A DNA stretch of 64,000 nucleotides. Source: Maribacter cobaltidurans. GTDB taxonomy: Bacteria > Bacteroidota > Bacteroidia > Flavobacteriales > Flavobacteriaceae. The DNA lies in contig NZ_CP022957.1 in assembly GCF_002269385.1 (NCBI RefSeq), positions 367,001-431,000 on the forward strand. The letters run 5' to 3'. A model generated the notes under the pieces. It saw only the letters and a program-made list of their open reading frames with translations, did no database searches and had not been told where the DNA came from. The stretch's first letter is position 1. Each line of letters starts with the position of its first letter. A program made the position numbers and the translations under genes. Shown here in pieces: positions 24,159 to 40,348 of the stretch.

Positions 24159-24177
24159 GATTCGGTAAATCTCTCTC
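24153..24177 (+). terminator. Hairpin overlapping the ABC-F stop codon
   Basis: GAGTGAGATT and AATCTCTCTC can form a ten-base stem with one mismatch around CGGTA. There is only a short T-rich tail, so it is a weak terminator candidate. Confidence 0.35.
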
Positions 24178-24279
24178 ATTTACAAAACATGCTAAAAAGA
24201 GTATTTAGTGCTTTTCATCAATGGAAAGCATCGATTAATAACACCTTTATCCGATAACCTGTTCTTGACCCAAGTACCG

Positions 24280-24348
24280 TTTGTCGAGCTAAATTTACAC
24301 TTTATCCCACCCTGTGTCTTATAACGAGAATTGGGTGTTTTTCAACGA
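24280..24348 (+). promoter_or_regulatory. Four phased TTCAnCGA-like boxes, copy 1
   Basis: Boxes start at 24280 (TTTGTCGA), 24301 (TTTATCCC), 24320 (TATAACGA) and 24341 (TTCAACGA), that is 126, 105, 86 and 65 nt before the ATG at 24406. Steps are 21, 19 and 21 bp. The same distances recur upstream of the other three small exported protein genes. Confidence 0.6.
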
Positions 24349-24405
24349 ATGGGAACCCTTCAAAATACGCTTGCGGTAGTTATAATAGTGTAACAAACGC
24401 AAGTC

Positions 24406-24642
24406 ATGAAAACAATAGCAACTATCTTCTTCATCTTCTTTATCGGAACAGCGGCACAGGCTAAGGACATTACAAAAGATGTAAAGGTTGATACTGTTGA
24501 GATGACCGTGGTTACAGAAACTACCCCAACGATAAAATTGGACGAGACCAAGCAAGTGGCAAGGTTGTATAAGTTCAAAAACTCAAGAATAAAAAAAGAG
24601 CTTTCTTTTGCCACCAAAAGAAACAGCCCTAAAATGGCTTAA
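24406..24642 (+). CDS. Small exported basic protein, copy 1 of 4
   Basis: 78 residues: signal peptide MKTIATIFFIFFIGTAAQA, an acidic/Thr-rich middle of about 30 residues, and a basic tail VARLYKFKNSRIKKELSF followed by ATKRNSPKMA. No cysteines in the mature part. The tail is shared with three other genes in this window. Between this copy and the one at 39927-40166, 23 tail codons differ by nine synonymous changes and one amino-acid change, which shows selection on the protein. The upstream 150 bp are also shared. I know no characterised homologue. A secreted signal, cationic antimicrobial or envelope-binding peptide are all possible. Confidence 0.8.
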   Translation: MKTIATIFFIFFIGTAAQAKDITKDVKVDTVEMTVVTETTPTIKLDETKQVARLYKFKNSRIKKELSFATKRNSPKMA

Positions 24643-24667
24643 CCTACAATATTATCCCCCTGGTGAC

Positions 24668-24693
24668 CCTACCTGCCTTTGGGCAGGTAGGGA
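24668..24693 (+). repeat. Palindromic hairpin downstream of copy 1
   Basis: CCCTACCTGCC and GGCAGGTAGGG form an eleven-pair stem around a TTTG loop, 26 bp after the stop. A matching palindrome follows the copy at 39927-40166. No T tract follows, so it may stabilise the 3' end or be a dispersed palindromic element rather than a terminator. Confidence 0.6.
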
Positions 24694-24770
24694 GCTACCC
24701 CTTAACATTCACCGATTCTTTTTTACGGTCCATCCCTATATTAAGGGACATCAAAATTAAATGGTATTAG

Positions 24771-24778
24771 TACATTTG
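24771..24778 (+). promoter_or_regulatory. Candidate promoter -7 box
   Basis: TACATTTG matches TAnnTTTG exactly, 23 nt before the GTG at 24802; the -33 TTG is missing at the usual spacing. Confidence 0.3.
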
Positions 24779-24801
24779 CGATATATTGAAAACACCCTAA
24801 C

Positions 24802-25299
24802 GTGTATCCTTTTTTTGCATACCTAAAATTTCTGTTTACGGCCACAAATCAGCATGGAGTACACTCACCCTTTGTATATAACTTCATTACCAAGGGACTC
24901 TATGTAAAAAGAAAAAAGGATATCAATATATCTGAACATGTTTTAACCACGGCAATTTCCTATTTTAATTACAAAAGAGTTGGATTTGTCCACACAGAGG
25001 ACTATATTAAAAATAAGATAGCTGTTCTTTTTGATGATTTAGAATTGGATGTTTTGCCTTTAGATTTGATTTATGTTGGCGAAGATGGCAAACCATTTAA
25101 TTCAATTTCCCAAGAAAGCTACCATAACGATTCAATGATGATGCTTAAGGGAATGCACAGGACCAAAAAAAGAAGAAATTATTGGGAGAGAATAAAAAAA
25201 CTTCCGGAAGTAACGGTTACTATAGACCTTTTTCACTGTAGTTTAGTATTCTTCAGAAAAGAACAAGCTAAGGAACATTTTAAAATAAGAATTTATTAA
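24802..25299 (+). CDS. Core-less relative of a SAM-dependent methyltransferase
   Basis: 165 residues from a GTG. The N-terminus (YLKFLFTATNQHGVHSPFVYN) and the C-terminus (VTVTIDLFHCSLVFFRKEQA) match, from memory, the two ends of a flavobacterial class-I methyltransferase of about 240 residues. The middle that should bind SAM (a glycine-rich GTSLG-type loop) is missing, and DLIYVGEDGKP retains only the late strand where DLIYIDGNH is usual. It should not be catalytic as it stands. It may be a decaying gene or a repurposed short protein; the frame is intact and it keeps its usual small membrane-protein neighbour. Confidence 0.6.
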   Translation: MYPFFAYLKFLFTATNQHGVHSPFVYNFITKGLYVKRKKDINISEHVLTTAISYFNYKRVGFVHTEDYIKNKIAVLFDDLELDVLPLDLIYVGEDGKPFNSISQESYHNDSMMMLKGMHRTKKRRNYWERIKKLPEVTVTIDLFHCSLVFFRKEQAKEHFKIRIY

Positions 25300-25314
25300 A
25301 CTTAACGCATTATC

Positions 25315-25455
25315 ATGGATAATACGATTTACATAGTCCTAGGTGTTGTTTTTGCCATATATCTCGTAATTACGATTACCAACAAAAAAAAGGCAAAGGA
25401 ACGGAAATCCAGAAAATTCATGGGAAATTACAAGCGTGACAAAAAAGAGGAATAA
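25315..25455 (+). CDS. Small membrane protein (46 aa)
   Basis: The ATG at 25315 opens a 46-residue frame: one hydrophobic helix (IYIVLGVVFAIYLVITI) followed by a very basic tail ending YKRDKKEE, so N-out/C-in by the positive-inside rule. It starts 15 bp after the methyltransferase-like gene. The composition and position suggest a real gene, and I believe homologues sit in the same place in related genomes. Function unknown. Confidence 0.6.
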   Translation: MDNTIYIVLGVVFAIYLVITITNKKKAKERKSRKFMGNYKRDKKEE

Positions 25456-25560
25456 AAATAATGGACATGTTTTATATTGCCCGCTTAGATTCCTAAAACT
25501 GATAGCATCCCATAGAATAAAAAACCAAGTCCGTTCACCAGATTTGTTGATTGTTAGAAA

Positions 25561-26136
25561 ATGAAAATATATACTAAAACAGGAGATAATGGTACCACTT
25601 CACTTTTTGGCGGGACCAGGGTTCCAAAACATCATATAAGAATAGATAGCTATGGCACTATTGACGAGTTGAACTCTTGGTTAGGACTCATTGGTGACCA
25701 AGAAATTTCAGATTCTTATAAGGAACAGCTAAGCACCATTCAGAAAAAATTGTTTACCATAGGGGCTATTTTAGCGACAGAACCGGCAAAGTCTTTACTC
25801 AAAAACGGTAAGGAACGTCTTTCCATTGAAAAAATCAATGAAGCCGATATTTCTTTTTTGGAAAGGGCCATGGACCAAATGGACGGAGAACTGCCACAAA
25901 TGACACACTTTATTTTGCCCGGAGGGCACACGACCGTGTCATACTGTCATATCGCAAGGACCGTTTGTAGAAGGGCGGAAAGAAAAACTACCATTTTGCA
26001 TGAAAACGAACCTTTTGATGATAGCGTACTTATCTATTTGAACCGACTTTCAGATTATCTTTTTGTACTGGCACGGAAATTGTCAATGGAGTTGAAAGTA
26101 GAGGAAATTAAATGGATTCCCGAAAAAAAGGACTAA
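25561..26136 (+). CDS. Cob(I)alamin adenosyltransferase, PduO type
   Basis: Transfers adenosyl from ATP to reduced cobalamin to make coenzyme B12. KIYTKTGDNGTTSLFGGTRV at residues 2-21 is the PduO ATP-binding start; SYGTIDELNSWLG and CRRAER-type motifs (VCRRAERKT) follow. 191 residues matches PduO/MMAB enzymes. It supports adenosylcobalamin-dependent methylmalonyl-CoA mutase, whose GTPase chaperone MeaB is encoded at 53136. No corrinoid synthesis genes are present, so salvage is likely. Confidence 0.92.
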   Translation: MKIYTKTGDNGTTSLFGGTRVPKHHIRIDSYGTIDELNSWLGLIGDQEISDSYKEQLSTIQKKLFTIGAILATEPAKSLLKNGKERLSIEKINEADISFLERAMDQMDGELPQMTHFILPGGHTTVSYCHIARTVCRRAERKTTILHENEPFDDSVLIYLNRLSDYLFVLARKLSMELKVEEIKWIPEKKD

Positions 26137-26216
26137 TAAATTCACAATTTAAGCGTTATCAATTTATCAATGCAAAAAATATGTTGATAACTCGGTCGAA
26201 ATAATTACAAATTATC

Positions 26217-26246
26217 TTGGCCATTTCCAATTAAAAATTATTTTTG
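26217..26246 (+). promoter_or_regulatory. Promoter for the DUF2795 gene
   Basis: TTG (26217-26219), 19 nt, TATTTTTG (26239-26246): an exact match to the Bacteroidota sigma-A consensus, 27 nt before the ATG. Confidence 0.6.
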
Positions 26247-26273
26247 CAAAAATTTTAAAATCAAACTATTACC

Positions 26274-26498
26274 ATGTATTGGACACTAGAATTAGCATCT
26301 TATTTAAGTGATGCGCCTTGGCCGGCAAGTAAAGATGAGTTAATTGATTACTCGATTAGAACCGGTGCTCCTTTGGAGGTTGTGGAGAATTTACAGTCCA
26401 TGGAGGAAGAAGGTGGTGAAATCTACGAATCCATTGAGGAGATTTGGCCAGATTATCCAACAGAAGAAGATTACCTCTGGAACGAGGACGAATATTAA
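26274..26498 (+). CDS. DUF2795 small acidic protein
   Basis: 74 residues, MYWTLELASYLSDAPWPASK then DELIDYSIRTGAP, the DUF2795 helix pair, with a very acidic C-terminal third (YPTEEDYLWNEDEY). Cytoplasmic, no signal. It has its own consensus promoter and a terminator, so it is a single-gene unit. Function unknown. Confidence 0.82.
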   Translation: MYWTLELASYLSDAPWPASKDELIDYSIRTGAPLEVVENLQSMEEEGGEIYESIEEIWPDYPTEEDYLWNEDEY

Positions 26499-26523
26499 TA
26501 TTTCATATCACAATAACTACTTA

Positions 26524-26549
26524 AAAGTCTCCTTGGAGGCTTTTTTTTT
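26524..26549 (+). terminator. Rho-independent terminator
   Basis: AAAGTCTCC pairs with GGAGGCTTT around TT, followed by a run of T; ends the DUF2795 transcript. Confidence 0.75.
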
Positions 26550-26711
26550 ATGTAATTTTGACAGTCCAAAAAGGAATTTCTGGTTGAATTGTAGACTGGA
26601 ATAGCTTTTGAACATAAGAAGTTCAAAATAAACTTTGACATTAATTAGCGGGGGTAAATGGTCCAATAACATTACCAACCTCGTTTTCAATACAAATTAC
26701 AAACATACAGC

Positions 26712-29700
26712 ATGAGCATTATTAATTCTATACTAAAGGCTTTCGTAGGTGACAAGTCCAAGAAAGATGTAAAGGAACTTCAGCCTTTGGTAGATCAGAT
26801 AAAATCCTTTGAAAAGGAGTTTGAACAACTTAGCCATGACGAACTAAGGAACAAAACCGCAAGCTTTAAACAAACCATCAAGGACTCTTACCAAGAAATT
26901 ACCAACAAGATAACGGAACTGGAAAAAGAAGTACAAGAATCTTCGGATATAGATAAGAACGAGGACATTTACGGGGAAATTGACAAACTTAAGGAAGAGG
27001 CCTATAAGATTTCAGAAGAAACACTGAACGCTATTTTACCGGAAGCCTTTGCCGTAGTTAAGGAAACGGCAAAGCGATTTGCGGCAAATGAAACCTTAAC
27101 CGTATTGGCTACAGAAAATGACCGCAAACTGTCCGGAGAAAAAGATTATGTTTCGCTGGATGGGGACAATGCCGTTTGGCAAAATTCTTGGGATGCCGCT
27201 GGTAAAGAGGTTACCTGGGACATGGTGCACTATGATGTACAATTAATAGGAGGTATCGCTTTACATCAAGGTAAGATTGCGGAAATGCAGACCGGGGAAG
27301 GTAAGACCTTGGTAGCTACCCTACCCTTATATTTGAATGCACTTACCGGTAATGGTGCGCATTTGGTGACCGTGAACGACTACCTTGCCAAAAGGGATAG
27401 TGCGTGGATGGCCCCTATTTTTGAATTTCATGGATTATCTGTAGACTGCATTGATCACCATAGACCTAATTCCGATGGTAGACGGGCAGCTTACAACGCC
27501 GATATCACATATGGTACAAATAACGAGTTTGGATTTGATTACTTGAGGGATAATATGGCGCATACACCAAAAGACTTGGTACAGCGTCCTCATAACTATG
27601 CCATCGTGGATGAGGTAGATTCAGTTTTGGTTGATGATGCCAGAACACCTTTGATTATTTCAGGACCGGTTCCTGAAGGTGATAGACATGAGTTCAATGA
27701 GTTAAAACCCAAGGTCAGCGAAATTGTACAAAAACAAAGACAACATTTGACAAGTGTTTTGGCCGAAGCCAAAAAATTAATAGCGGAGGGGGATACCAAG
27801 GAAGGAGGCTTTCTATTGCTTCGAGTTTATAGGGGCTTGCCGAAAAACAAGGCGCTTATTAAGTTCTTGAGTGAGGAGGGTGTAAAACAACTGCTCCAAA
27901 AGACGGAGAATTTTTACATGCAGGATAATAATCGTGAGATGCCCAAGGTCGATGAAGATCTGCTTTTTGTAATCGACGAGAAAAACAACCAAATAGAATT
28001 AACGGATAAGGGGGTCAATTATATTTCCGGTGAACAGGATAGGGACTTTTTTGTAATGCCCGATATTGGAGCAGAGATTGCAAAAATAGAACAGCAAAAC
28101 CTAGAAATCGAGGAAGAGGCGGAGCTCAAGGAAGAACTATTTAAAGATTTCACGGTCAAAAGTGAGCGTATTCACACCATGAGCCAATTGCTTAAGGCAT
28201 ATACTTTATTCGAAAAGGATGTTGAGTATGTCGTAATTGATAACAAAGTGATGATCGTCGACGAACAGACCGGTCGTATCATGGATGGTCGTCGTTATTC
28301 CGATGGTCTTCACCAAGCTATCGAAGCAAAGGAAAACGTAAAGATTGAGGCGCTGACACAAACGTTTGCCACCGTAACCCTGCAAAACTATTTTAGAATG
28401 TACAGTAAATTGGCCGGTATGACCGGTACCGCCATTACGGAAGCTGGGGAATTCTGGGAAATCTATAAATTGGATGTTGTTGAAATTCCTACCAACAGAC
28501 CTATTGCCAGGGACGATAGAAACGACTTGATCTATAAAACAAAACGGGAAAAATATAATGCCATTATTGATGAGGTAACCAAATTAAGCCAGGCAGGAAG
28601 ACCCGTGCTTATTGGTACGACCTCGGTAGAAATATCGGAGTTATTGTCGAAATTGTTGAGTGTTCGGAAAGTTCCACACAATGTATTAAATGCAAAACTG
28701 CACAAAAAAGAGGCAGATGTAGTTGCCGATGCTGGGAATCCTGGGGTCGTAACCATTGCAACCAACATGGCAGGTCGTGGAACGGATATTAAATTAACGG
28801 AAGAAGTTAAAAAAGCTGGTGGATTGGCTATCATCGGTACGGAAAGGCATGATTCCAGACGAGTGGACAGACAGCTGAGAGGTCGTTCAGGTCGTCAAGG
28901 GGATCCAGGAAGTTCTCAATTCTATGTATCCCTTGAGGATAATCTTATGCGACTTTTTGGTTCAGATAGGGTTGCCAAGATGATGGATAAAATGGGCTTG
29001 GAAGAAGGTGAGGTCATTCAACACAGCATGATGACCAAATCCATAGAAAGAGCGCAGAAAAAAGTTGAGGAAAACAACTTTGGGGTTCGTAAACGTCTTT
29101 TGGAGTATGATGATGTAATGAATGCCCAACGTGAAGTAGTCTACAAAAGAAGGCGCCATGCCCTGCAAGGTGAACGACTCAAAGTGGATATCGCCAATAT
29201 GGTTTATGACACTTGTGAAGTAATTGTTGAAGGCAACAAAGCAGCCAACGACTATAAAAATTTCGAATTTGAATTGATTAAATATTTCTCCATGACTTCT
29301 CCTGTTACTGAGGAGGAATTTGGAAAACTTAGTGCCCAAGAAATTACAGGAAGAATTTATAAGTCTGGCTATGAGCACTATAAAGAAAAAATGGAACGAA
29401 ATGCAACTGCGGCACTACCGGTAATCAAACAGGTTTATGAGGACAATGCAAATAATTTTGAGCGCATTGTGGTTCCATTTACCGATGGGGTAAAAACCTT
29501 GAACGTTGTAACAAATTTAAAGGAGGCGTATGAAAGTGAAGGTAAACAACTGGTAACAGATTTTGAGAAGAATATTTCCTTGGCCATCATAGATGATTCC
29601 TGGAAAACGCACCTCAGAAAAATGGATGAATTAAAACAATCCGTTCAATTGGCCGTACACGAACAAAAAGATCCTTTGCTTATCTACAAATTTGAAGCGT

Positions 29701-30074
29701 TTGAGCTTTTCAAGGAAATGATTGAAAAAGTCAATAAAGAAATAGTTTCCTTCCTATTTAAAGGAGAGTTACCATCCGGTAATCCCAATGACATCAGGGA
29801 AGCCAGAAACGCTCCACAACGAAAGGAAAAAATACAGACTTCAAAGGAAGAAATTCCCAATAGCGACGAACTCGCCGCACAGAATAGGGCTGCAGGACAG
29901 ACACAAAGACAACGACCATCCGTCACGGAAACCATAATAAGGGAACAACCCAAAATTGGAAGAAATGAGAAAGTGACCATCAAAAATGTAATGTCCGGAG
30001 AAAGCAAAACTGTGAAATACAAACAGGCAGAACCTTTGTTATCCAAAGGAGAATGGGTTCTAACAAATGATTAA
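26712..30074 (+). CDS. secA: Preprotein translocase ATPase SecA
   Basis: Drives export through SecYEG. Walker A QTGEGKT is at about 193-199, the [16 protein letters not shown] region near 300, and helicase motifs [12 protein letters not shown] and [14 protein letters not shown] in NBD2. At 1120 residues it is about 220 longer than the E. coli protein. Extra segments lie near the N-terminus (about 60-110) and after the DEVD box (about 335-430), which I take as lineage-typical inserts. The C-terminus lacks the usual SecB-binding zinc motif and ends instead in a short beta-like tail ([18 protein letters not shown]). Ends at a strong terminator. Confidence 0.95.
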
Positions 30075-30089
30075 ATTCTAATTCATTTT

Positions 30090-30121
30090 AAAAAAAGGCG
30101 CTCGTAATGAGCGCCTTTTTT
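30090..30121 (+). terminator. Rho-independent terminator after secA
   Basis: AAAAAAGGCGCTC pairs with GAGCGCCTTTTTT around GTAAT; the A and T flanks make it usable in both directions. Confidence 0.9.
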
Positions 30122-30219
30122 GTTTCCTTATTTTTTCTCCCCCACAAATATTGAACTCTTAAATAACAGTCCTTTATAAATTTTAAATATCTTTAAGTGA
30201 ACGGTATTCCATCAAAATC

Positions 30220-31614
30220 ATGAAAACTTCCAGAAGAGAGTTCATTTTCTCCATTAGTATGCTCGCTGCAAGCAGTGCAATGCCTATTAACGCCTTTGCC
30301 TTTAACAATGCTAAAAAACTCAAGGTGGCCCTTGTTGGAACCGGCATTCGGGGTATTACGTTCTGGGGCAAGCGTTTGGTGGACGAATATTCTGAAATTT
30401 TGAAATTTGTTGGACTCAGTGATATAAATCCTAGCCGATTGGAATACGGCAAAAAATATATAGGTGCCCAATGTCCTACATTCACTTCCTTTGAAGAAAT
30501 GGTCTCCACTTCAAAACCCGATTTAATTATAGTGACTACCAAAGACGCTACCCATCATGAATTTATTATCAAAGGACTTGAGATGGGGTGTGATGTCCTA
30601 ACCGAAAAACCCTTGACCGTTGACGAAGTAAAATGCCAGCAAATTTTGGATGCCGAGAGAGCTTCGAATAAGAATTTAATCGTAGGATTTAATTATAGAT
30701 GGAGCCCTTATGCCACTAAAATCAAGGAACTACTTTCAAATAAGACTATTGGGAAACTGGTTTCTGTAGATTTTAATTGGTATCTAAACACCTATCACGG
30801 AGCATCCTATTTTAGAAGGTGGCACGGTGAAATGAAAAGTAGCGGTTCTTTATGGGTACATAAAGCTACCCATCATTTTGACTTACTCAACTGGTGGATA
30901 AATTCTGAACCTAATGAAGTTTTTGCCTACGGAGATTTGGAGTTTTATGGAAAGAATGGTGCTTTTAGAGGGGGAAATTGTAGAAACTGTAATCATAAGA
31001 ACACATGTGATTTTTATTGGGATATCAACAAAGATGAATTTGCCAAAAAATTATACGTAGACCATGAACACGAAGATGGGTATATACGGGATAATTGTCT
31101 ATTTAGGGAGGATATAGATATTTACGATAAAATGTCAGCTCAGGTAAAATATACGGACAATACGATATTAAACTATTCCTTAACTACCTATTCTCCTTTT
31201 GAAGGATGGCGCGTTGCCTTTAATGGAACGGAAGGAAGAATAGAGGCTTGGTTGGATATACCCTACTTCGAAAACACATCCATTGACGAAGCAGAAAAGC
31301 ATGCTAGTGAAATGGCTCAGAAACTGGAAGAACGGACCTCGCAGAAACCCATAATGGTCCATAAGCTTTGGAAGGATTTTGAAACCGTTCAGGTAGATAT
31401 GGAACAGAGCGGCCATGGAGGTGGAGATAAGCGATTACATGATAAAATATTCGTTAATCCAGAAATTCCCGATCCTTATGGAAGAACCGCTGGGGTTAGG
31501 GATGGCGCTATGTCCATATTAATTGGGATTGCCGCCAGAAAAAGTATTCAATCAGGCAATCCAATAAAAATTTCGGATCTTACAGATTTAAGTCCAAGAG
31601 CAAAAAGAACGTAG
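30220..31614 (+). CDS. Tat-exported Gfo/Idh/MocA oxidoreductase with cysteine cluster
   Basis: An NAD(P)-dependent sugar oxidoreductase. KTSRREFIFSISMLAASS is a twin-arginine signal. The Rossmann start VALVGTGIRG is at about residues 34-43 and the catalytic-lysine motif is EKPLTVDE. A substrate domain follows with KATHHFDLLNWW. Inside it lies NCRNCNHKNTCDFYWD and a further RDNCLF about 32 residues on: four cysteines that could bind zinc or an iron-sulfur centre. Stands alone between secA and a sensor kinase gene. Substrate unknown. Confidence 0.85.
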   Translation: MKTSRREFIFSISMLAASSAMPINAFAFNNAKKLKVALVGTGIRGITFWGKRLVDEYSEILKFVGLSDINPSRLEYGKKYIGAQCPTFTSFEEMVSTSKPDLIIVTTKDATHHEFIIKGLEMGCDVLTEKPLTVDEVKCQQILDAERASNKNLIVGFNYRWSPYATKIKELLSNKTIGKLVSVDFNWYLNTYHGASYFRRWHGEMKSSGSLWVHKATHHFDLLNWWINSEPNEVFAYGDLEFYGKNGAFRGGNCRNCNHKNTCDFYWDINKDEFAKKLYVDHEHEDGYIRDNCLFREDIDIYDKMSAQVKYTDNTILNYSLTTYSPFEGWRVAFNGTEGRIEAWLDIPYFENTSIDEAEKHASEMAQKLEERTSQKPIMVHKLWKDFETVQVDMEQSGHGGGDKRLHDKIFVNPEIPDPYGRTAGVRDGAMSILIGIAARKSIQSGNPIKISDLTDLSPRAKRT

Positions 31615-31653
31615 TTTCCATTTTTTATGGGAGTAACTTCAAAAATCTTAGCA

Positions 31654-31670
31654 TTATGTTAAAAACATAA
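31654..31670 (+). promoter_or_regulatory. Perfect palindrome upstream of the sensor kinase
   Basis: TTATGTT-AAA-AACATAA, an exact 7-bp inverted repeat 49 nt before the kinase ATG, next to TAGATTTA, a near match to the -7 box. Possible dimeric operator. Confidence 0.3.
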
Positions 31671-31718
31671 TTAGATTTACACTGAAAACTATGATTACCA
31701 AATATCTAAATTGATATT

Positions 31719-32933
31719 ATGCCAGATTCTCATATAGAAAAGGAACGACTGACCACCAAGACACAACTTGTTTTAAAAGTAAATTATGTCACCAGTATCC
31801 TTTGCATAGTATTGGGTATTATCTGTTTTTTTCTACTGGGTATTACAGAAATAATACCTTTTGTCCTGTTTGCTTTTGGCCTAATTAACCTTACCAATAC
31901 TTTTCTTTTTAAAAAACATAATAACCTTACGGTAACATACTACATTTCATCGATAATTGCACTGATAAGCTCTCTTGTCATAACACTTTACAGCGGAGGA
32001 ATCAATAGTTCGTTCATTTTTATGATGGCACTTGTTGTTTTTGCTGGTTATGTAAACACCTACAAACATGGAAGAGCCTACCTGTATTTTACATTTCTGC
32101 TTGTCCTATTCATTTTTTCGCAAAGCTTTCCAGAGTTCAGTTTCACGGAGAACCTCGTTCCTCCGGCTTCCAGGAATATCTTTAGTCTTTTATCCGTTTC
32201 TTTTTCCCTTTTCCTACTGGGTAGCATTTTTGGAAAGGATTTATTAAAGTCCCATAATGCCTTATATAAGTCCAAAAAGGAACTTACAATACAAATGCAC
32301 GAAAAAGAAATGCTCTTAAAGGAAGTACATCATAGGGTGAAGAATAACCTGCAGACTGTATCCAGTCTGCTGAGTCTGCAAACTAGGAATGTCCAGGAGA
32401 CCCAAATGAAGAATCTTTTGAAAAGTACTCAAAACAGGGTGATTTCAATGGCAATGGTCCATGAAATGCTCTATATGAGGAAGGATATTAGTCAAATTGA
32501 ATATAAATCCTATGTTCAGGAATTAAGTGAATATCTAATTCGTTCCATTAAAGGTCTTGATAGCAAGGTTAACCTAAAAATAGACATACCGGAAATTAAG
32601 TTAGGAATCGATACGGCCATTCCTTTAGGACTGTTAATCAATGAGGCGGTTACCAATGCCCTAAAATATGGCTTCGCCGATGACCAGGAAGGGGAGATTT
32701 ATATCGCCCTGAAAAAGGAAATCGACAAACACTATGTTCTGAATATTGGTGATAATGGTGTAGGTTTCCCTGATACCATCAATTATAAAAATTCCAAGTC
32801 ATTAGGCCTTAAACTAATTCATAACCTCGCGAGACAACTTAAGGGTTCTATACAAAAGGACACCAGTAAAAAAGGGACCAACTATATTATTAGGTTTCAA
32901 GAAATTAAGCAGCAATTATCACCGGTAGCCTAA
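31719..32933 (+). CDS. Membrane sensor histidine kinase, HisKA_2 type
   Basis: 404 residues. About six hydrophobic helices fill residues 25-170. The HisKA_2 dimerisation domain KEVHHRVKNNLQTVSSLLSL starts at about residue 201, with the phospho-accepting His in VHHRVKNN. An HATPase with NEAVTNALKYG and GDNGVGFP follows. There is no periplasmic sensor domain of any size, so the signal is probably in the membrane. No response regulator is adjacent, so it is an orphan here. Confidence 0.86.
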   Translation: MPDSHIEKERLTTKTQLVLKVNYVTSILCIVLGIICFFLLGITEIIPFVLFAFGLINLTNTFLFKKHNNLTVTYYISSIIALISSLVITLYSGGINSSFIFMMALVVFAGYVNTYKHGRAYLYFTFLLVLFIFSQSFPEFSFTENLVPPASRNIFSLLSVSFSLFLLGSIFGKDLLKSHNALYKSKKELTIQMHEKEMLLKEVHHRVKNNLQTVSSLLSLQTRNVQETQMKNLLKSTQNRVISMAMVHEMLYMRKDISQIEYKSYVQELSEYLIRSIKGLDSKVNLKIDIPEIKLGIDTAIPLGLLINEAVTNALKYGFADDQEGEIYIALKKEIDKHYVLNIGDNGVGFPDTINYKNSKSLGLKLIHNLARQLKGSIQKDTSKKGTNYIIRFQEIKQQLSPVA

Positions 32934-33065
32934 TTTTCAAGTACTAGTTTTACAAAATTCCCAATTCGCTTGACAAACTCTTTAGTAAATCTAAAGTTTG
33001 CCCCGATATTTTCTATATTTAAGAAACTAATTCAAACCAATCAAGAATCACCAACCTCTCCTAAT

Positions 33066-34652
33066 ATGAAAAAAATATTCCGCTCACTTATTCTTTTTTT
33101 CCTATTCGTGCATTTTTCAAACGCCCAATCCTTACAAGGAGACGGACCTTATTCCCAGCTGATCATTAGAGGTGTCACACTTATCAATGGAAACGGTGCC
33201 CCTCCACAAGGACCTATAGATATAGTTGTAGAGAATAATATCATAAAAGCTATTAAGGTGGTTGGGTACCCAGGAGTGAAAATAGATGATTCCAAAAGGC
33301 CACAATTAAAAGCCGGGGGAAAAGAATTGGACTGCACGGGAATGTACCTAATGCCAGGATTGATAGATATGCACGGACATATTGGGGGTCAAGCCCAAGG
33401 AGCAGAACCGGATTACGTTTTTAAACTTTGGATGGCCCACGGAATCACAACGGTACGTGAACCTAGCGGTAGGGGTGTTGACTTTACCATGGACCTAAAG
33501 AAAAAAAGTGAAAGAAATGAAATCATTGCCCCGCGTATAATGGCCTATACGGCATTTGGGCAAACTAGCAAATCCTTTAATCCTTTGAACGATATTCCTA
33601 TTTCTACTCCTGAGCAGGCCAGGGAATGGGTACGGGCCAATGCCAAAAAAGGTGCCGACGGCATTAAGTTTTTTGGGGCCGAACCCGAAATTATGACTGC
33701 GGCCTTGGACGAAAACAAAAAATTGGGACTTGGTTCTGCATGTCATCATGCCCAGCTAAGTGTTGCGAGATGGAACGTGCTACATTCTGCCCGGGCTGGA
33801 CTCACATCGATGGAGCATTGGTACGGCCTTCCAGAGGCCTTATTCGATGATAGAACGGTACAGGATTATCCCTTGGACTACAATTATCAAAACGAACAAC
33901 ACCGTTTTGAAAATGCGGGCAACCTTTGGTCCCAGGCTGCAAAGCCCTACTCCGAACATTGGAATGACGTAATGAACGAATTATTGGAACTGGATTTTAC
34001 GTTAGATCCCACTTTCAACATCTACGAGGCCAGTAGGGACTTACAAAGAGCACGAAGAGCCGAATGGCACGAAGATTACACACTTCCTTCTCTATGGGAG
34101 TTTTATCAACCCAGTAAAATATCCCACGGTTCCTATTGGCATGATTGGGGTACCGAACAGGAAGTGGCCTGGAAAAAAAACTACAATTTATGGATGACCT
34201 TTGTAAACGAATACAAAAATAGAGGTGGCCGGGTAACTACAGGTTCCGATTCCGGTTTTATCTTCCAACTTTATGGATTTGCCTATATTAGGGAATTAGA
34301 GCTGCTTAGGGAGGCCGGTTTTCACCCATTGGAGATAATACGCTCCGCAACATTGAACGGAGCAGAAGCGTTGGGTATGGATGACAAGATAGGTAGCGTA
34401 GCTATTGGAAAATTAGCTGACTTTGCCATCGTTGCCGAAAATCCACTTAAAAACCTCAAAGTTCTCTATGGTACGGGAGCTATCAAACTAACAAAGGACA
34501 ACAAAGTGGTGCGGGTTGGCGGTGTAAAATACACCATCAAAGACGGTATCATTTATGATTCCAAAGCCTTATTGGCCGATGTAAAGCGTCAAGTGGATGA
34601 GGCCAAAGCCCAGGAGAATTACACCATTAAACAACCTGGTGTTAACAAATAA
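33066..34652 (+). CDS. Exported metal-dependent amidohydrolase
   Basis: I start at the ATG at 33066, giving signal peptide MKKIFRSLILFFLFVHFSNA; the frame is open for 32 further codons upstream but those lack sense as a signal. Amidohydrolase-superfamily residues are present: DMHGHIGG (HxH), ACHHAQ, SMEHWYG and TGSDSGF (final Asp). About 528 residues. Likely periplasmic hydrolase of a cyclic amide, dipeptide or related compound; the exact substrate cannot be read from the motifs. Confidence 0.85.
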   Translation: MKKIFRSLILFFLFVHFSNAQSLQGDGPYSQLIIRGVTLINGNGAPPQGPIDIVVENNIIKAIKVVGYPGVKIDDSKRPQLKAGGKELDCTGMYLMPGLIDMHGHIGGQAQGAEPDYVFKLWMAHGITTVREPSGRGVDFTMDLKKKSERNEIIAPRIMAYTAFGQTSKSFNPLNDIPISTPEQAREWVRANAKKGADGIKFFGAEPEIMTAALDENKKLGLGSACHHAQLSVARWNVLHSARAGLTSMEHWYGLPEALFDDRTVQDYPLDYNYQNEQHRFENAGNLWSQAAKPYSEHWNDVMNELLELDFTLDPTFNIYEASRDLQRARRAEWHEDYTLPSLWEFYQPSKISHGSYWHDWGTEQEVAWKKNYNLWMTFVNEYKNRGGRVTTGSDSGFIFQLYGFAYIRELELLREAGFHPLEIIRSATLNGAEALGMDDKIGSVAIGKLADFAIVAENPLKNLKVLYGTGAIKLTKDNKVVRVGGVKYTIKDGIIYDSKALLADVKRQVDEAKAQENYTIKQPGVNK

Positions 34653-34682
34653 GGATAGTCCGCCTCGTAGTTAAGACCAATT

Positions 34683-34802
34683 TTATTTATTCTTATTCTC
34701 TACCGGAATTTTAATAGGCTTTAATGTTCCTTTGGATTTTGGAAAAATTACTAAATAAGAAGTAATTAAGGATACTGTGATAAGTGTGATTGAAAATAAC
34801 AT
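34683..34802 (-). CDS. Candidate 39-aa single-helix membrane peptide
   Basis: ATG at 34802, stop at 34685-34683. Sequence MLFSITLITVSLITSYLVIF then a basic tail (PKSKGTLKPIKIPVENKNK). One clean membrane helix with positive tail. It begins 58 bp after the stop of small exported protein copy 3 on the same strand, so it could be the second gene of that transcript. Supported only by its composition and position. Confidence 0.35.
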   Translation of the reverse strand: MLFSITLITVSLITSYLVIFPKSKGTLKPIKIPVENKNK

Positions 34803-34860
34803 AGCATTGTGATTTAAGTTAAGTACCTCTGGGTACTGTGAATTATAAGTAGGTCAAATT

Positions 34861-35118
34861 TTATGCCAATTTAGGTTTATCCTTTTTGGTTTTGAAAAAT
34901 AATGCGCTTTTAACCCTGGAATTCTTGTAGCGATATAACCTGGCTACTTCCGTTTGTTTTTCTCCAACTAGGATTTCAATATTTTCAGTGTCCAAGCTAT
35001 TATCCGTCAAAATAACATTCTCTTGTAGAGTATCTACTTTATCATTTTTTTTGACATTTTGGGCCATAGACATTCCTCCAAAAAAAAGAACTAGGGAAAA
35101 GGTTAAAATAGCTTTCAT
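34861..35118 (-). CDS. Small exported basic protein, copy 3 of 4
   Basis: 85 residues: signal peptide MKAILTFSLVLFFGGMSMAQ, an acidic middle about seven residues longer than in the other copies, and the tail EVARLYRYKNSRVKSALFF plus KTKKDKPKLA. The tail keeps VARLY, SR[IV]K, LxF and PK[ML]A but is more diverged than copies 1 and 2. Its upstream region still carries the phased boxes. No known function; see the family-level finding. Confidence 0.78.
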   Translation of the reverse strand: MKAILTFSLVLFFGGMSMAQNVKKNDKVDTLQENVILTDNSLDTENIEILVGEKQTEVARLYRYKNSRVKSALFFKTKKDKPKLA

Positions 35119-35175
35119 AACATCGATTTGGGTTATATAAAGCTAACTCGGCAAGTAAATTAATATCGGTATATC

Positions 35176-35243
35176 TCGCTGAAATACAATGTTTTTCGGT
35201 TATTGGCCTTTTGATGGATTAAGTGTACAAAATGCTCGCCAAA
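35176..35243 (-). promoter_or_regulatory. Four phased TTCAnCGA-like boxes, copy 3
   Basis: Boxes begin at 35243 (TTTGGCGA), 35222 (TTAATCCA), 35203 (ATAACCGA) and 35183 (TTCAGCGA), that is 125, 104, 85 and 65 nt before the ATG at 35118. Spacing is within 1 bp of copies 1 and 2 although the sequence between boxes has diverged. Confidence 0.55.
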
Positions 35244-35343
35244 CGTAATTGAAACAAAAAACAGCTTATCGATAAAACCGTTCCTTGAACGACCATTTTT
35301 TCAATATAGATTAGACTTCTAGGTCTAAAAGTGAGTAAAAAGA

Positions 35344-37893
35344 CTAGTTATTTTCCTTTCTTAGAACCTGTAGAGGCGGACTCTTTAGCACAGAAATATT
35401 ATTGGAAAGACCAATGACCAGTACCAAAAAGGTTATACCGGGAAGTACGATCAAAAAGGGTACCCAAGAAGGAACAAAGGGTGTCTCAAATATAAAATAA
35501 GCCAATAACTGACTTCCAATTAGGGATAACAGTACACCAATACCGCTACCAAGGATTCCTAAATACAAATACTCCAATGCCGTAATTTTAAGAATTTGGT
35601 TACTTTTCGCCCCAATGGTCCTTAAGAGTACACTTTCCCGAATACGCTGATATTTACTGTTTCGTACCGAACCAATAAGCACAATTACTCCGGTAAGAAT
35701 GCTAAAAAAAGCCATAAAGCTTACCACCCAAGATATCTTGTCCAGAATACTTTCTATAAGCGCTAGGACTTGTCGCAAATCCAATATGGAAACATTGGGG
35801 AATTTCTTTACCAATTCGCGCTGTAAACTTGCCGAAGTCGATTTGTCCGGAGCATTCGTTGTAATGACATGGAACTGTGGTGCGTTTTCTAAGACCCCTG
35901 TTGGAAATACAATTGAAAAATTAAGTTGCATTCTTCCCCAATCCACCTCACGGATACTTCCAACCACCGTTTTCATAAGCATTCCCTGTACATTGAAAAG
36001 CAGCGTATCACCCACAACAACCTGGGCATCCCGGGCTACATTGTCTGACAAAGAAATGGGAACCGGACCATTCTCCGGTACTTTGGAATTGAACTCACCT
36101 GATACCAATTTTTCTGACCCTATTAGAGAATCCCTATAAGTGACCCGAAATTCATGGTTTAGTATCCATTTATTAATACTTGTAGTGGTATCCAAACGAA
36201 TTTCATTGACACTACGATCCTTTATACGCTCCATGCGCATGGTAATTATCGGAATATTGTCCAAAATTGGTAACCCCTTGGGCTCAATAGTATTGATTAT
36301 ATCCTGCTTTTGTCCGGTCTGTACATCGAACATAATAATATTGGGACTCTTTTCATTGGCTTCTATAACGGCCTTGGCCAGCAAAAAATCCTTTGTAAAA
36401 TATAAGGTACTGATCAAGAAAGTTCCTATTCCAATGGCAAGAATTAAAACCGCGGTTTGATTATTGGGACGGAATAGGTTCAACAAACTCTGTCTCGATG
36501 TAAAATTCCAAGATTTTGGAAAATACTTTTTGACCAAGCGCATGAACAGTACGGAAACCCCTGCTAGGATTGAAAATGTAACCAATATCCCAAGGACAAA
36601 GCCTAGGGCATATTTGAAACTGTTCAACAGCCACAAAGCAAATAAAAAGACAAACAGGACAATAGCGAGAACCACCCAAAGCTGGGCTTTTCTAGATTTT
36701 GTACCCAAATTGTCCTGAACCCTTAATACTTGTAAGGGCGATACGAACCAGGTATTCAATAGTGGTGAAAGTGCAAAAAGTACGGACATTAAAACACCTA
36801 AAATCAAACCAACGGCGATTGCCGCATAAGATGTAGATATTTCAACTTCAAAAGGCAAAAATTCCTGTAAAATCAATGGAAAAGTTTGCTGTAGCAATAA
36901 TCCGATAACGGTGCCTATAAAACCTCCTAACAGTCCCATTCCCGCAATTTGTATCAAATAAATCAAAAAGGTCTGTTTTCTGGTAGCTCCCAAACATTTT
37001 AAAACCGCTACCGACCTCAATTTTTCTTTGATGTAAATATGGACCGAACTTGCAATACCAACACAGCCAAGTAACAAGGCAATAAAGGCTACAAGGTTTA
37101 AAAATCTGCCTACATTGTCATACCTTCTTCCCAGCCTTTGGCTTGTTGTGGTGTGCGTATCCAAATCGGCATTCTGTTCATCCAATAAGGGATCTACCTC
37201 CTTATCAAGCTGTTCCAAATCTGCATCCGGTGATTTAAAATAGTAGGCGTATTCCAATCTGCTTCCCTTTTGTAAAAGTCCGCTAGGCCCCATAAATTCA
37301 AATGGAACCATTATTGGAGGTGCAACTGAGGTCCCAATTCCTGTGCTTCCGGGAGCGGTAATCAAAGACCCAACAATAGGAAATGTTATGTTGCCCAATT
37401 TCACGCTATCCCCTACTTTTAAATCGAATTGTAACATGGCAGTAGCGTCTACCAATGCTCCTCCTTTTTCTTGATAGGTAGAAGCGGCATCAATGGGTTC
37501 TGTTTCCAACTCCCCATAAAAGGGAAAATTACCTTCTACCCCCCTAACCTGTACCAATTTTGTCTCTCCGCTTTTTACGAAAGCGGCCATTGAGGCGAAC
37601 TTAACTTCCTTGGCCCCCGGTCCTCCCAGGGAATCCATGATTTCCACCACTCGTTCATTGGCAGGTTCATTACTATCGATTAAGAAATCGGCTCCCATCA
37701 AAGCCTTGGATTGTCCACCGATGTTTTCCTTCAAGTTCTGACTGAAAGACTGTATGGAAACTACAGCGGCAATGCCCAAAATAATACTACCCATAAACAA
37801 TAAAAGCCGTTTGCCACTGGCCTTACCATCACGCCAAGCCATTTTAAGCAACCATGAAAATGGAGTTTTGGAAGTCGTATCTAAACTACTCAA
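35344..37893 (-). CDS. ABC transporter permease, FtsX/MacB type (YbbP-like)
   Basis: 849 residues with ten or so membrane helices arranged as one N-terminal helix, a large periplasmic domain (about 50-260), three helices of the first FtsX module, a pair of central helices, a second periplasmic domain (about 520-690) and the last FtsX module. This is the duplicated FtsX layout of E. coli YbbP. Coupled to its ATPase by a 4-bp ATGA-type overlap (37890-37893) and divergent from an arylesterase, the same order as ybbP-ybbA-tesA. Such systems handle lipids or lipoproteins at the inner membrane; the cargo is not established. Confidence 0.85.
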   Translation of the reverse strand: MSSLDTTSKTPFSWLLKMAWRDGKASGKRLLLFMGSIILGIAAVVSIQSFSQNLKENIGGQSKALMGADFLIDSNEPANERVVEIMDSLGGPGAKEVKFASMAAFVKSGETKLVQVRGVEGNFPFYGELETEPIDAASTYQEKGGALVDATAMLQFDLKVGDSVKLGNITFPIVGSLITAPGSTGIGTSVAPPIMVPFEFMGPSGLLQKGSRLEYAYYFKSPDADLEQLDKEVDPLLDEQNADLDTHTTTSQRLGRRYDNVGRFLNLVAFIALLLGCVGIASSVHIYIKEKLRSVAVLKCLGATRKQTFLIYLIQIAGMGLLGGFIGTVIGLLLQQTFPLILQEFLPFEVEISTSYAAIAVGLILGVLMSVLFALSPLLNTWFVSPLQVLRVQDNLGTKSRKAQLWVVLAIVLFVFLFALWLLNSFKYALGFVLGILVTFSILAGVSVLFMRLVKKYFPKSWNFTSRQSLLNLFRPNNQTAVLILAIGIGTFLISTLYFTKDFLLAKAVIEANEKSPNIIMFDVQTGQKQDIINTIEPKGLPILDNIPIITMRMERIKDRSVNEIRLDTTTSINKWILNHEFRVTYRDSLIGSEKLVSGEFNSKVPENGPVPISLSDNVARDAQVVVGDTLLFNVQGMLMKTVVGSIREVDWGRMQLNFSIVFPTGVLENAPQFHVITTNAPDKSTSASLQRELVKKFPNVSILDLRQVLALIESILDKISWVVSFMAFFSILTGVIVLIGSVRNSKYQRIRESVLLRTIGAKSNQILKITALEYLYLGILGSGIGVLLSLIGSQLLAYFIFETPFVPSWVPFLIVLPGITFLVLVIGLSNNISVLKSPPLQVLRKENN

Positions 37894-38579
37894 GCTAATG
37901 TTTTGGTTTGGTTGGAAATAATTTTACCTCCTTTCAAACGAATTATTCGTTGGGTCAATTGAGCCAGATCTAAATCATGGGTAACAATGACCAAAGTAGT
38001 TCCCATTTCTTTGTTTAGCTCGAACAAAAGTTGAATTACCTTCTCGCCCGTTTCTTCGTCCAAGTTACCTGTGGGCTCATCGGCGAATAAAATATCCGGG
38101 GTTGTTGAAAATGCCCTTGCAAGTGCAACGCGCTGTTGTTCCCCACCTGACAATTGAGAAGGATAGTGATCATATCTATCGCCAAGACCAACCTTTTCCA
38201 ACAAATTCTTGGCCACTTGGCCCGCATTGGGGTTGCCCTGCAACTCCAATGGTACACTAACATTCTCTAGGGCAGTAAGGGTCGGCAATAATTGAAAATC
38301 CTGAAAAATGAAACCCACCTTTTGGTTTCTCAACAAGGCCAATTGATCCTCGTTCAATTGATTAAGTTTCGTTCCACAGAGTTCAATATTACCTTCATCT
38401 ATATGGTCCAATCCCGCACATAATCCCAAAAGAGTCGTTTTACCACTTCCGGAAGGGCCTACAATGGAAAAGGTTTCCCCTGCTTCAATGTCAAATGAAA
38501 TACCATCCAAAACAGTTAAATCCCTGGACCCGCTCCTATAAGTTTTCCTAAGATTGCTTACGTTTAATATCTTTGCCAT
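37890..38579 (-). CDS. ABC transporter ATPase, LolD/MacB type (YbbA-like)
   Basis: I start at the ATG at 38579 ([17 protein letters not shown]); the longer reading adds residues unlike this family. Walker A GPSGSGKT, signature [15 protein letters not shown] and Walker [13 protein letters not shown] are all intact, and the DEPTGNLD form marks the LolD/MacB/FtsE branch, which works with FtsX-type permeases by mechanotransmission. Forms one unit with the following permease. Confidence 0.88.
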
Positions 38580-38637
38580 AAATCGTTTGGTACAAGCTAA
38601 CAAAGTAAGCAAATGATTTCTACTTTTAGAAGAAACC

Positions 38638-39363
38638 ATGAAGTACAAAGTATTAAAGTTTAGTTATTTTTTGGCCTTTTTCCTCCTCTTAGGCTGTGGA
38701 GAAGATCCAAAACAGTCAAAAAGCGGCTCAGAAAATTCTGAAGTTCCAGCAGAGAGTAAAGAAGAAAAGAAAATAACCGATGACCAAGTAATTCTTTTTT
38801 TTGGAAATAGCCTTACTGCTGCCTACGGACTGGAAACCGAACAAGGATTTCCCAACCTAATCCAAAAACGGATAGATTCGCTAGGTCTGAATTATAAGGT
38901 TATCAACTCTGGACTTAGTGGTGAGACTACTTCTGGAGGGCTTAATAGATTGGATTGGGTTCTAAACCAGGACGTAGATATTTTTGTTTTGGAATTGGGT
39001 GCCAATGATGGACTTAGAGGTATCCCTTTGGGAAAAACAAAGGAAAACCTTCAAAAAATCATTGATGCCGTTCTAGAAAAAAATAAAAACACGACCATCA
39101 TTCTTGCTGGAATGCAGATTCCTCCCAATATGGGTCTGGATTACACAGCGGAATTTAGGAACATGTACCCGGACTTGGCCAAGAATAACGATATTCATAT
39201 AATTCCTTTCCTTCTAGATGGTGTGGCCGGAGAGCCAGATTTAAATCTTGAAGATGGCATACATCCAACCGCGGAAGGTCAAAAAATAGTTGCGGAAAAT
39301 GTATGGGACATACTAGGACCGTTAGTAGTTCAAAAAAATGAAGGCGAAATGATAATGGATTAG
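38638..39363 (+). CDS. SGNH arylesterase/lysophospholipase lipoprotein (TesA-like)
   Basis: Lipobox LLLGC at residues 16-20, then a Ser/Glu/Lys-rich spacer and a SGNH hydrolase. Block I is FFGNSLTAAYGL with catalytic Ser58; block III is LGANDGLRG; the C-terminal Asp-His pair is in DGIHPTAEGQ. The fold matches E. coli TesA, but this copy is lipid-anchored. The gene is divergent from the YbbAP-like transporter across 58 bp, as tesA is in enterobacteria. Its stop codon overlaps the stop of convergent small exported protein copy 4. Confidence 0.88.
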   Translation: MKYKVLKFSYFLAFFLLLGCGEDPKQSKSGSENSEVPAESKEEKKITDDQVILFFGNSLTAAYGLETEQGFPNLIQKRIDSLGLNYKVINSGLSGETTSGGLNRLDWVLNQDVDIFVLELGANDGLRGIPLGKTKENLQKIIDAVLEKNKNTTIILAGMQIPPNMGLDYTAEFRNMYPDLAKNNDIHIIPFLLDGVAGEPDLNLEDGIHPTAEGQKIVAENVWDILGPLVVQKNEGEMIMD

Positions 39364-39596
39364 GCCAATTTTTTACTTTTTTTCTCCACAGTAAAGGATA
39401 AGGCTCTTTTTATCCTAGAATGTTTTAAAACAAAAATACCTGTTATCGCAGGGAGCTTTTCACCCAAATTAGTTTGGTCCATGGGTTCAGTAATGGGCAT
39501 TGAAATGGTGCTTACCTTAACTTCAATTTCCGGCTTCTGAGCTTGGGCAAAGGCCCCCGTGCAGACAACAAGCATTAACAAAAGAATAGTTTTCAT
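39360..39596 (-). CDS. Small exported basic protein, copy 4 of 4
   Basis: 78 residues from the ATG at 39596, which gives MKTILLLMLVVCTGAFAQAQ; the longer reading would precede this with polar residues. The most divergent copy: the VARLY block is replaced by TGIFVLKHSRIKRALSFTVE and the end is KKSKKLA. It still keeps SRIK, ALSF and K-L-A. It overlaps the convergent arylesterase by four bases at the stops. Upstream it carries three boxes at the same distances as the other copies. Confidence 0.75.
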   Translation of the reverse strand: MKTILLLMLVVCTGAFAQAQKPEIEVKVSTISMPITEPMDQTNLGEKLPAITGIFVLKHSRIKRALSFTVEKKSKKLA

Positions 39597-39653
39597 TGAT
39601 AGGTAGATTTGGTCTGTATATAACTCTAGCATTGTCTATTTAAAATTTAAGAT

Positions 39654-39701
39654 TCGACAAACGGTCAATTTTTTCCGATGAAATTCAAATTTTTCGATGA
39701 A
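39654..39701 (-). promoter_or_regulatory. Three phased TTCAnCGA-like boxes, copy 4
   Basis: Boxes begin at 39701 (TTCATCGA), 39682 (TTCATCGG) and 39661 (TTTGTCGA): 105, 86 and 65 nt before the ATG at 39596, exactly as in copies 1 and 2. The fourth position (-126) is poorly conserved here (TTAACTTA). Confidence 0.6.
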
Positions 39702-39742
39702 CAACATAGCTCTATAAGTTAATTCCTACAAAATATTTTTAA

Positions 39743-39773
39743 TTTCATCGATGTTTTTACGCATTTCATCGAT
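39743..39773 (+). repeat. Perfect 10-bp direct repeat, 21-bp period
   Basis: TTTCATCGAT occurs at 39743-39752 and 39764-39773. Two helical turns apart, in the opposite orientation to the copy 4 boxes, which suggests a second binding site for the same factor. Confidence 0.55.
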
Positions 39774-39866
39774 AAAAATAATTATTTCCTACAGGGAATC
39801 TGGGGTAGACAATCAGTATATAGTATTTATTTATGGTAAGACCAATCCCGAGGGCACGATTCAATG

Positions 39867-39900
39867 GATAGCCCTAAACCTGCCAAGCGGCAGGTAAGGG
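39867..39900 (-). repeat. Palindromic hairpin downstream of copy 2
   Basis: On the minus strand CCCTTACCTGCC and GGCAGGTTTAGGG pair around GCTT with a T bulge. It corresponds to the hairpin after copy 1, with changes that mostly keep the stem. Confidence 0.5.
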
Positions 39901-39926
39901 TCCACCCGAGGGGATAATATCTTAGG

Positions 39927-40166
39927 TTAAGCCATCTTTGGACTGTTTCTTTTGGTAGCAAAGGAAAGTTCCTTTTTAATTCTGGAACCTTTGAACTTGT
40001 ATAACCTGGCTACTTCTTGCGTCTTTTCGGTCTTAATTGTAGGCTGTTGTGTCTGTGTAACAATACCCGTAGTAATAGTCTCTATTTTTACCAAATCAGT
40101 ATTCTCTTGTGCGCTTGCCGCGGTTCCGATGAAAAGGATAAAGAAGATGGTTGCTATTGTTTTCAT
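39927..40166 (-). CDS. Small exported basic protein, copy 2 of 4
   Basis: 79 residues: signal peptide MKTIATIFFILFIGTAASAQ, a Thr/Gln/Glu-rich middle that differs strongly from copy 1, and the tail EVARLYKFKGSRIKKELSF plus ATKRNSPKMA, identical to copy 1 except for Gly in place of Asn. The leader just before the ATG (GTAACAAACGCAAGTC) is identical to copy 1. Head-to-tail with copy 4 on the minus strand. Confidence 0.8.
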   Translation of the reverse strand: MKTIATIFFILFIGTAASAQENTDLVKIETITTGIVTQTQQPTIKTEKTQEVARLYKFKGSRIKKELSFATKRNSPKMA

Positions 40167-40223
40167 GACTTGCGTTTGTTACATTATTATAACTTCGGCA
40201 AGCGTATTTGAGGGGGTGGAGAT

Positions 40224-40292
40224 TCGATGAACAACAACCGTTTCTCGTTATCCGGCATCGATTCGGATAAAGTGTGAATTTACCTCGATGAA
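40224..40292 (-). promoter_or_regulatory. Four phased TTCAnCGA-like boxes, copy 2
   Basis: Boxes begin at 40292 (TTCATCGA), 40271 (TTTATCCG), 40252 (GATAACGA) and 40231 (TTCATCGA): 126, 105, 86 and 65 nt before the ATG at 40166, spacing identical to copy 1. The 14-mer TGTTGTTCATCGAA around the last box also occurs upstream of copy 4. Confidence 0.6.
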
Positions 40293-40348
40293 CGTTCAAG
40301 GGGTCAAAAACAGGTCAACGGAAAAAGTATGTTTTTGGTCGATGTATA

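Follow-up and report, generated by a model that had tools for sequence, protein, structure and literature searches.

Phased box arrays upstream of small secreted-protein genes in Maribacter cobaltidurans: a probable LytTR-type operator and its candidate orphan regulator

What reads the repeated boxes that stand upstream of four small genes in Maribacter cobaltidurans? We analyzed these genes, termed here c1 to c4, within a window of 64,000 nucleotides (positions 367001-431000 of the single-contig, 4.64-Mb genome, G000), in which a first-pass annotation had described arrays of boxes at fixed distances before each start codon and had taken them for the operator of a cooperative activator or repressor. 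The arrays are real and conserved, and they are very probably regulatory. We further consider it probable that they constitute a LytTR-type operator, at which an orphan response regulator encoded beside priA and rpsF occupies the phased row of boxes, probably cooperatively, and activates the small genes.

The predicted products of the four genes are paralogues of 78 to 85 amino acids that appear to be secreted: c1 (24406-24642, + strand, 78 amino acids, ATG at 24406), c2 (34861-35118, − strand, 85 amino acids, ATG at 35118; copy 3 of the first-pass annotation), c3 (39360-39596, − strand, 78 amino acids, ATG at 39596; its copy 4), which belongs to a divergent subfamily, and c4 (39927-40166, − strand, 79 amino acids, ATG at 40166). 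The c1 protein is 72% identical to c4, 41% to c2 and 32% to c3, and each of the four combines a Sec-like signal with a middle part that varies and a basic C terminus that is conserved, the last residues of the latter being LA or MA in this genome. A profile search of the genome with the four proteins revealed no fifth copy (next matches at E 0.69 and 0.85), and no Pfam or NCBIfam match exceeded the cutoff, with weak matches below it only. The family comprises 1620 proteins at E ≤ 0.01 (best 120 listed), and among 299 genomes sampled from the same taxonomic family, 57 gave small-gene matches at E ≤ 0.001, 48 of which we treated as strong (E ≤ 1e-14) and 9 as marginal.

The forward boxes, taken as 8-mers, start at -126, -105, -86 and -65 relative to the ATG upstream of c1 (24280-24348, + strand) and c4 (40224-40292, − strand), at -125, -104, -85 and -65 upstream of c2 (35176-35243, − strand), and at -105, -86 and -65 upstream of c3 (39654-39701, − strand), as had been described. 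Those of c1 read TTTGTCGA (24280-24287), TTTATCCC (24301-24308), TATAACGA (24320-24327) and TTCAACGA (24341-24348), and those of c3 read TTCATCGA, TTCATCGG and TTTGTCGA. While these positions stood, the form TTCAnCGA assigned to the boxes at the same time held only in part: it is strict in the -65 box of c1, c2 and c4, the -126 box of c4 and the -105 box of c3, but in no other of these forward boxes, and the boxes at -105 and -86 of c1, c2 and c4 deviate from it by 2 to 3 bases. The consensus is looser, about CaNTTyAyCGA. Upstream of each of the four arrays lies, in addition, a pair of boxes in reverse orientation that was absent from the earlier description, located at 24230-24261 (− strand) for c1, 35262-35293 (+ strand) for c2, 39741-39773 (+ strand) for c3, where TTCATCGA occurs at 39744-39751 and 39765-39772, and 40311-40343 (+ strand) for c4.

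The motif TTCAnCGA occurs 13 times in the window versus 6.9 expected, a number reached by 1 of 100 shuffles, and 7 of the 13 sites fall inside the four arrays. Scored for three boxes with a matrix trained without this genome, the promoters of c1, c2, c3 and c4 reached 16.3, 17.1, 33.6 and 26.7, values attained by 1, 2, 0 and 0 of 5000 dinucleotide shuffles per promoter, respectively; none of 48 other open reading frame (ORF) starts exceeded 3.0. Weighing against uniqueness, three of the 12 best among 2556 sliding window stretches lie outside the arrays (19.5 near 3950 on the − strand, 17.1 near 42400 on the − strand and 15.8 near 29450 on the + strand). Because of these stretches c1 and c2 are not unique by three-box score alone, and the weight of the argument therefore rests on conservation in other genera. 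When the whole 4.64-Mb genome was searched with a four-box profile, R1 (150 of 3651 first-look candidates scored), the only matches below E 0.1 were c1 (2.8e-16), c4 (3.5e-14) and c2 (1e-11).

Upstream regions of 157 family members from the fetched loci yielded 141 unique and 87 non-redundant sequences, with 129 unique and 80 non-redundant promoters of the main type. Matrix matches clustered sharply: those to forward boxes at about -127, -87 and -67, with a TCC-ending variant around -106, and those to reverse boxes at about -177 and -157. Across the 77 of 80 main-type promoters that were aligned, the spacing was invariant or nearly so, the successive steps measuring 21 bp (77/77), 19 bp (77/77) and then 21 bp (67/77) or 20 bp (10/77), which supports the earlier proposal that steps of 19 to 21 bp put the sites on one DNA face. 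The sequence between the boxes and the distance to the ATG drift, the C of the last CG lying anywhere from -65 to -58. Since the box spacing is rigid while spacers and ATG distance drift, the arrays most likely represent a protein-bound, helically phased operator. The four-box frame (at least 9 of 11 frame letters) was held by 79 of the 80 non-redundant and 127 of the 129 unique main-type promoters, compared to at most 8 of 11 letters in reversed control sequences; of the three promoters left out of the alignment, those from L029 and L021 hold the frame on checking and the one from L033 does not. The reverse pair was present in 57 of 80 main-type promoters, whereas as controls, forward pairs sought in that stretch numbered 8 of 80 and reverse pairs at -300 to -233 numbered 0 of 79. 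Promoters of the c3 type kept the 19- and 21-bp steps in 12 of 12 cases, and the outgroup genome G057 retains arrays, two of which stand 55 bp before strongly diverged small proteins. The operator pattern recognized in the window alone is supported by these relatives.

Which protein would bind such an operator? The genome encodes 11 LytTR genes, among them an orphan response regulator with receiver and LytTR domains (G000:C1:3996598-3997284) located between priA and rpsF. Its identity is 89-100% across all 48 of the strong small-gene genomes and 84% in G057, compared to at most 76% for the best copy in the other listed genomes. As a side observation, this regulator is tandemly duplicated beside rpsF in L183 (G056), and G212 has several copies.

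The boxes are not confined to the small genes. Weak R1 matches in genomes without small genes include pairs, such as GCATTTCATCGA followed 20-21 bp on by TTTTTAAACGA, that sit tens of bases before other ORFs, several of them with signal-peptide-like starts; many other weak matches have no such ORF behind them. A two-box model, R2, was built from 13 pairs drawn from 20 candidate loci, two of which had no pair, while four were excluded by eye (scores of 6-8, though three others scoring 8 were retained) and L140 was excluded because it was aligned one period out of step. Searched with 150 candidates scored per genome, 20 held-out genomes with the orphan regulator gave 8-39 R2 matches at E ≤ 0.1, with best E values between 9.9e-5 and 4.6e-9, versus 0-6 weak matches (best E 1.5e-3 or higher) in 20 held-out genomes without it (threshold E ≤ 1e-50). 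The boxes thus track a LytTR protein across genomes, a co-occurrence that is confounded with phylogeny. Twenty small-gene genomes, including G000 and G057, which had supplied training sequences, gave 7-25 matches with a best E of 3.9e-4 or lower. In 6 of 20 loci read (L243-L262), namely L243, L245, L246, L247, L250 and L252, all from genomes without a strong small-gene match, the pair precedes a conserved small protein by about 35-50 bp; the one tested resembles DUF1660 below the cutoff, and similar DUF1660-like small proteins follow pairs in L204, L207 and L212. Within the M. cobaltidurans genome, 8 of 21 R2 places were inspected, two of which precede lipoprotein-like ORFs and one an exported-looking ORF, with nothing clear at the other five. 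A forward box pair also occurs in the window at 9136-9167 (+ strand), some 270 bp upstream of an LD-carboxypeptidase gene.

The upstream region of the orphan regulator itself also scores for the box pair. In a set of 28 such regions (three loci without a located start and one repeat left out), no more than 10 of 1000 mononucleotide shuffles attained the score in 18 cases, the strongest being G150 and G191. The remaining 10 fail this threshold, three of them before second copies of the gene, and the best pair lies at two registers, about -59/-38 or, in at least six regions, about -39/-18. Given the two registers and the 10 failures, autoregulation by the orphan regulator is therefore only suggested.

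In the mechanism we favor, the LytTR-domain response regulator would bind the boxes just upstream of the promoter, probably cooperatively, its dimers lined up along roughly one face of the DNA, and the bound regulator would switch on the small secreted-protein gene. The array of two reverse and four forward boxes would then be an enlarged version of the two-box operator that the same regulator may use elsewhere in the family. The boxes end about 55 bp before the ATG, and in the promoters downstream of them -7-like elements are visible by eye only and no clear -33 element was seen by eye. Because a row of LytTR dimers upstream of a promoter without a clear -33 element is most simply read as activating, activation rather than repression would be the simplest sign.

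Published LytTR operators provide a comparison. At peptide-regulated bacteriocin loci of Lactobacillus plantarum, the PlnC/PlnD sites consist of 9-bp repeats, TACGTTAAT, separated by a 12-bp spacer and adjoining the -35 box on its upstream side, and cooperative dimer binding to them was shown (PMC2714321). These sites would resemble the arrays in that direct repeats recur at roughly two helical turns, close to the promoter on its upstream side, at loci for small secreted peptides, and their repeat is somewhat like box 1, which reads TACGTTCAT in part of the family; the remaining boxes share mainly the TT core with TACGTTAAT. They differ in having two boxes instead of four forward and two reverse ones, whereas here the core is longer and ends in CGA, the candidate regulator gene lies away from its target, and the phylum is another. 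In the LytTR Regulatory Systems (LRS; HdrRM, BrsRM and relatives), LytTR regulators likewise have direct repeats upstream of the -35 box, mostly 12 bp apart and some 11 or 13, including in the regulators' own promoters (PMC6193735); there, the gene neighboring the regulator encodes a membrane inhibitor, whereas the present candidate possesses a receiver domain and sits between priA and rpsF. AgrA binds as a LytTR dimer to two direct repeats at agr P2/P3, the promoter-proximal ones centered about -60, with two boxes only (PMC4227749). The box core of about 11 bp observed here has the size of a LytTR repeat, and the steps of 21 and 20-21 bp fit the 20-22-bp period of the published pairs, although the 19-bp step falls short of it. 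No paper on this operator or on LytTR sites in the group was found in the literature searched, which covers few subscription papers.

Several points weigh against assigning the arrays to the orphan regulator. At E ≤ 1e-50 the regulator occurs in 230 of 299 genomes, a range much wider than that of the small genes. Phylogeny is a confounder of its presence, and of the 20 genomes lacking it, 10 are small (1.3-2.2 Mb). The 19-bp step, found in 77 of 77 promoters, is shorter than the 20-22 bp of the cited LytTR pairs, and both promoters that failed the frame are those of tandem small-gene copies in L033 (G108), a third copy there having the array. To these are added the failures and the two registers in the regulator's own upstream regions. 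Finally, the cross-genome comparison covered two of the 11 LytTR genes, so that the orphan regulator is the best supported candidate and not a proven one.

A different LytTR protein might read the operator, for example the response regulator encoded with a histidine kinase (His_kinase) at 56090-57908 (− strand) of the window. This protein has the required receiver and LytTR domains and lies 16 kb from the arrays. However, an orthologue of at least 53% identity was identified in only 18 of 299 genomes (among the 37 matching at E ≤ 1e-60), 12 of them strong small-gene genomes, and 36 of the 48 strong small-gene genomes, the two congeneric ones among them, gave none at that threshold. With a close orthologue in just 12 of 48, the window regulator is rejected as a universal reader of the boxes, and, going by the two LytTR genes compared across genomes, we regard another LytTR protein as the reader as unlikely.

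A regulator of another class that uses direct sites about 21 bp apart, such as an AraC-type protein, might bind the boxes instead; AraC half-sites are similarly spaced. We give this possibility little credence, as the core of the boxes has the size of a LytTR repeat and as the box pairs separate the 20 genomes with the orphan LytTR regulator from the 20 without it.

Instead of an operator, the repeats might be a transcript element or a site of recombination or attachment. This reading can draw on an inverted repeat that some family members carry immediately ahead of the start codon, such as GCGTTTTTATTATATAAAAACGC at about -30 to -5 (e.g., in L052, L024 and L057); the window copies contain no perfect inverted repeat there. 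Separately, inspection by eye shows a second short inverted repeat, ACCCC..GGGGT, in part of the family (L017, L046 and L030, for example), located downstream of the final box and ahead of the ATG. Nevertheless, folding of the -58 to -1 region revealed no consensus pairs over 55 sequences, a chosen subset without the Muricauda-like group (117 distinct main-type regions, of which 80 were picked by their endings and 55 folded), and no Rfam match at gathering score was found in 24000-41000, so that we reject a conserved RNA fold before the ATG. The arrays moreover hold a narrow distance to the ATG. We therefore consider a role other than that of an operator very unlikely.

That the arrays were kept merely through recent duplication, without a regulatory role, is hardly credible, as the first-pass annotation had argued from its copy 4, and is contradicted by the comparative spacing data: c1 and c4 are indeed close duplicates with similar promoters and tandem copies are common in relatives, but the c3 promoter is unlike those of c1 and c4 except for the boxes and keeps the steps in this different context, the spacing is held across genera while spacers diverge, and arrays in G057 precede strongly diverged proteins.

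If the orphan regulator beside priA and rpsF controls the small genes, which kinase might feed it? The window encodes an orphan sensor kinase (31719-32933, + strand) with HisKA_2 and HATPase_c domains and about six N-terminal hydrophobic segments (by hydropathy scan only). A relative at E ≤ 2.2e-70 was present in 47 of 48 strong small-gene genomes, in six of which (G086, G103, G150, G152, G164 and G176) the kinase half alone matches, and in 4 of 251 others (G256, G277, G077 and G288). A small gene was flagged in the same stretch as the kinase in 17 of 20 fetched neighborhoods; this linkage and co-occurrence may reflect vertical inheritance. Since G203 and G057 carry small genes without such a relative (best E 2.2e-45 and 8.6e-41), the kinase is a candidate sensor at most. 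Its pairing with a LytTR regulator is plausible because HisKA_2-like kinases, identified by sequence motif, adjoin LytTR regulators twice elsewhere in the genome (L123 and L125). No second regulator copies were seen beside second kinase copies, a further point to be set against the orphan regulator. Separately, the kinase relative in L169 (G256) has an in-frame stop, and no small gene was found in that genome.

It is conceivable, though we consider it doubtful, that the small proteins, the linked HisKA_2 kinase and the orphan LytTR regulator form one loop, in which the exported basic peptide, with its strongly conserved C terminus, would be sensed by the kinase, the kinase would act on the regulator and the regulator would fire the six-box arrays. 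In systems of the Agr/Com type, the peptide activates its own kinase, the kinase and LytTR regulator genes stand beside the peptide gene, the agr operon containing all three together, unlike here, and the kinases are not known to carry HisKA_2. In contrast, the nearest 20 kb around the linked kinase contain no LytTR gene in this genome or the nine others compared, and this kinase has HisKA_2 and HATPase_c domains. Elsewhere in the locus, a gene for an M23 peptidase that has no evident signal peptide (40349-41029, − strand) lies directly upstream of c4, and its relatives are present in 33 fetched loci.

If such a loop exists, it would represent peptide signaling in Flavobacteriaceae that is Agr/Com-like in its working and built from other parts. 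Independently of the loop, assignment of the arrays to the orphan LytTR regulator would provide the operator code of a conserved regulator that 230 of the 299 genomes sampled from the family possess, each genome offering some 10-40 candidate sites, and would mean that an unusual six-box operator rigidly precedes a family of small secreted proteins. The function of the orphan regulator, and that of the peptides, would thereby become directly testable.

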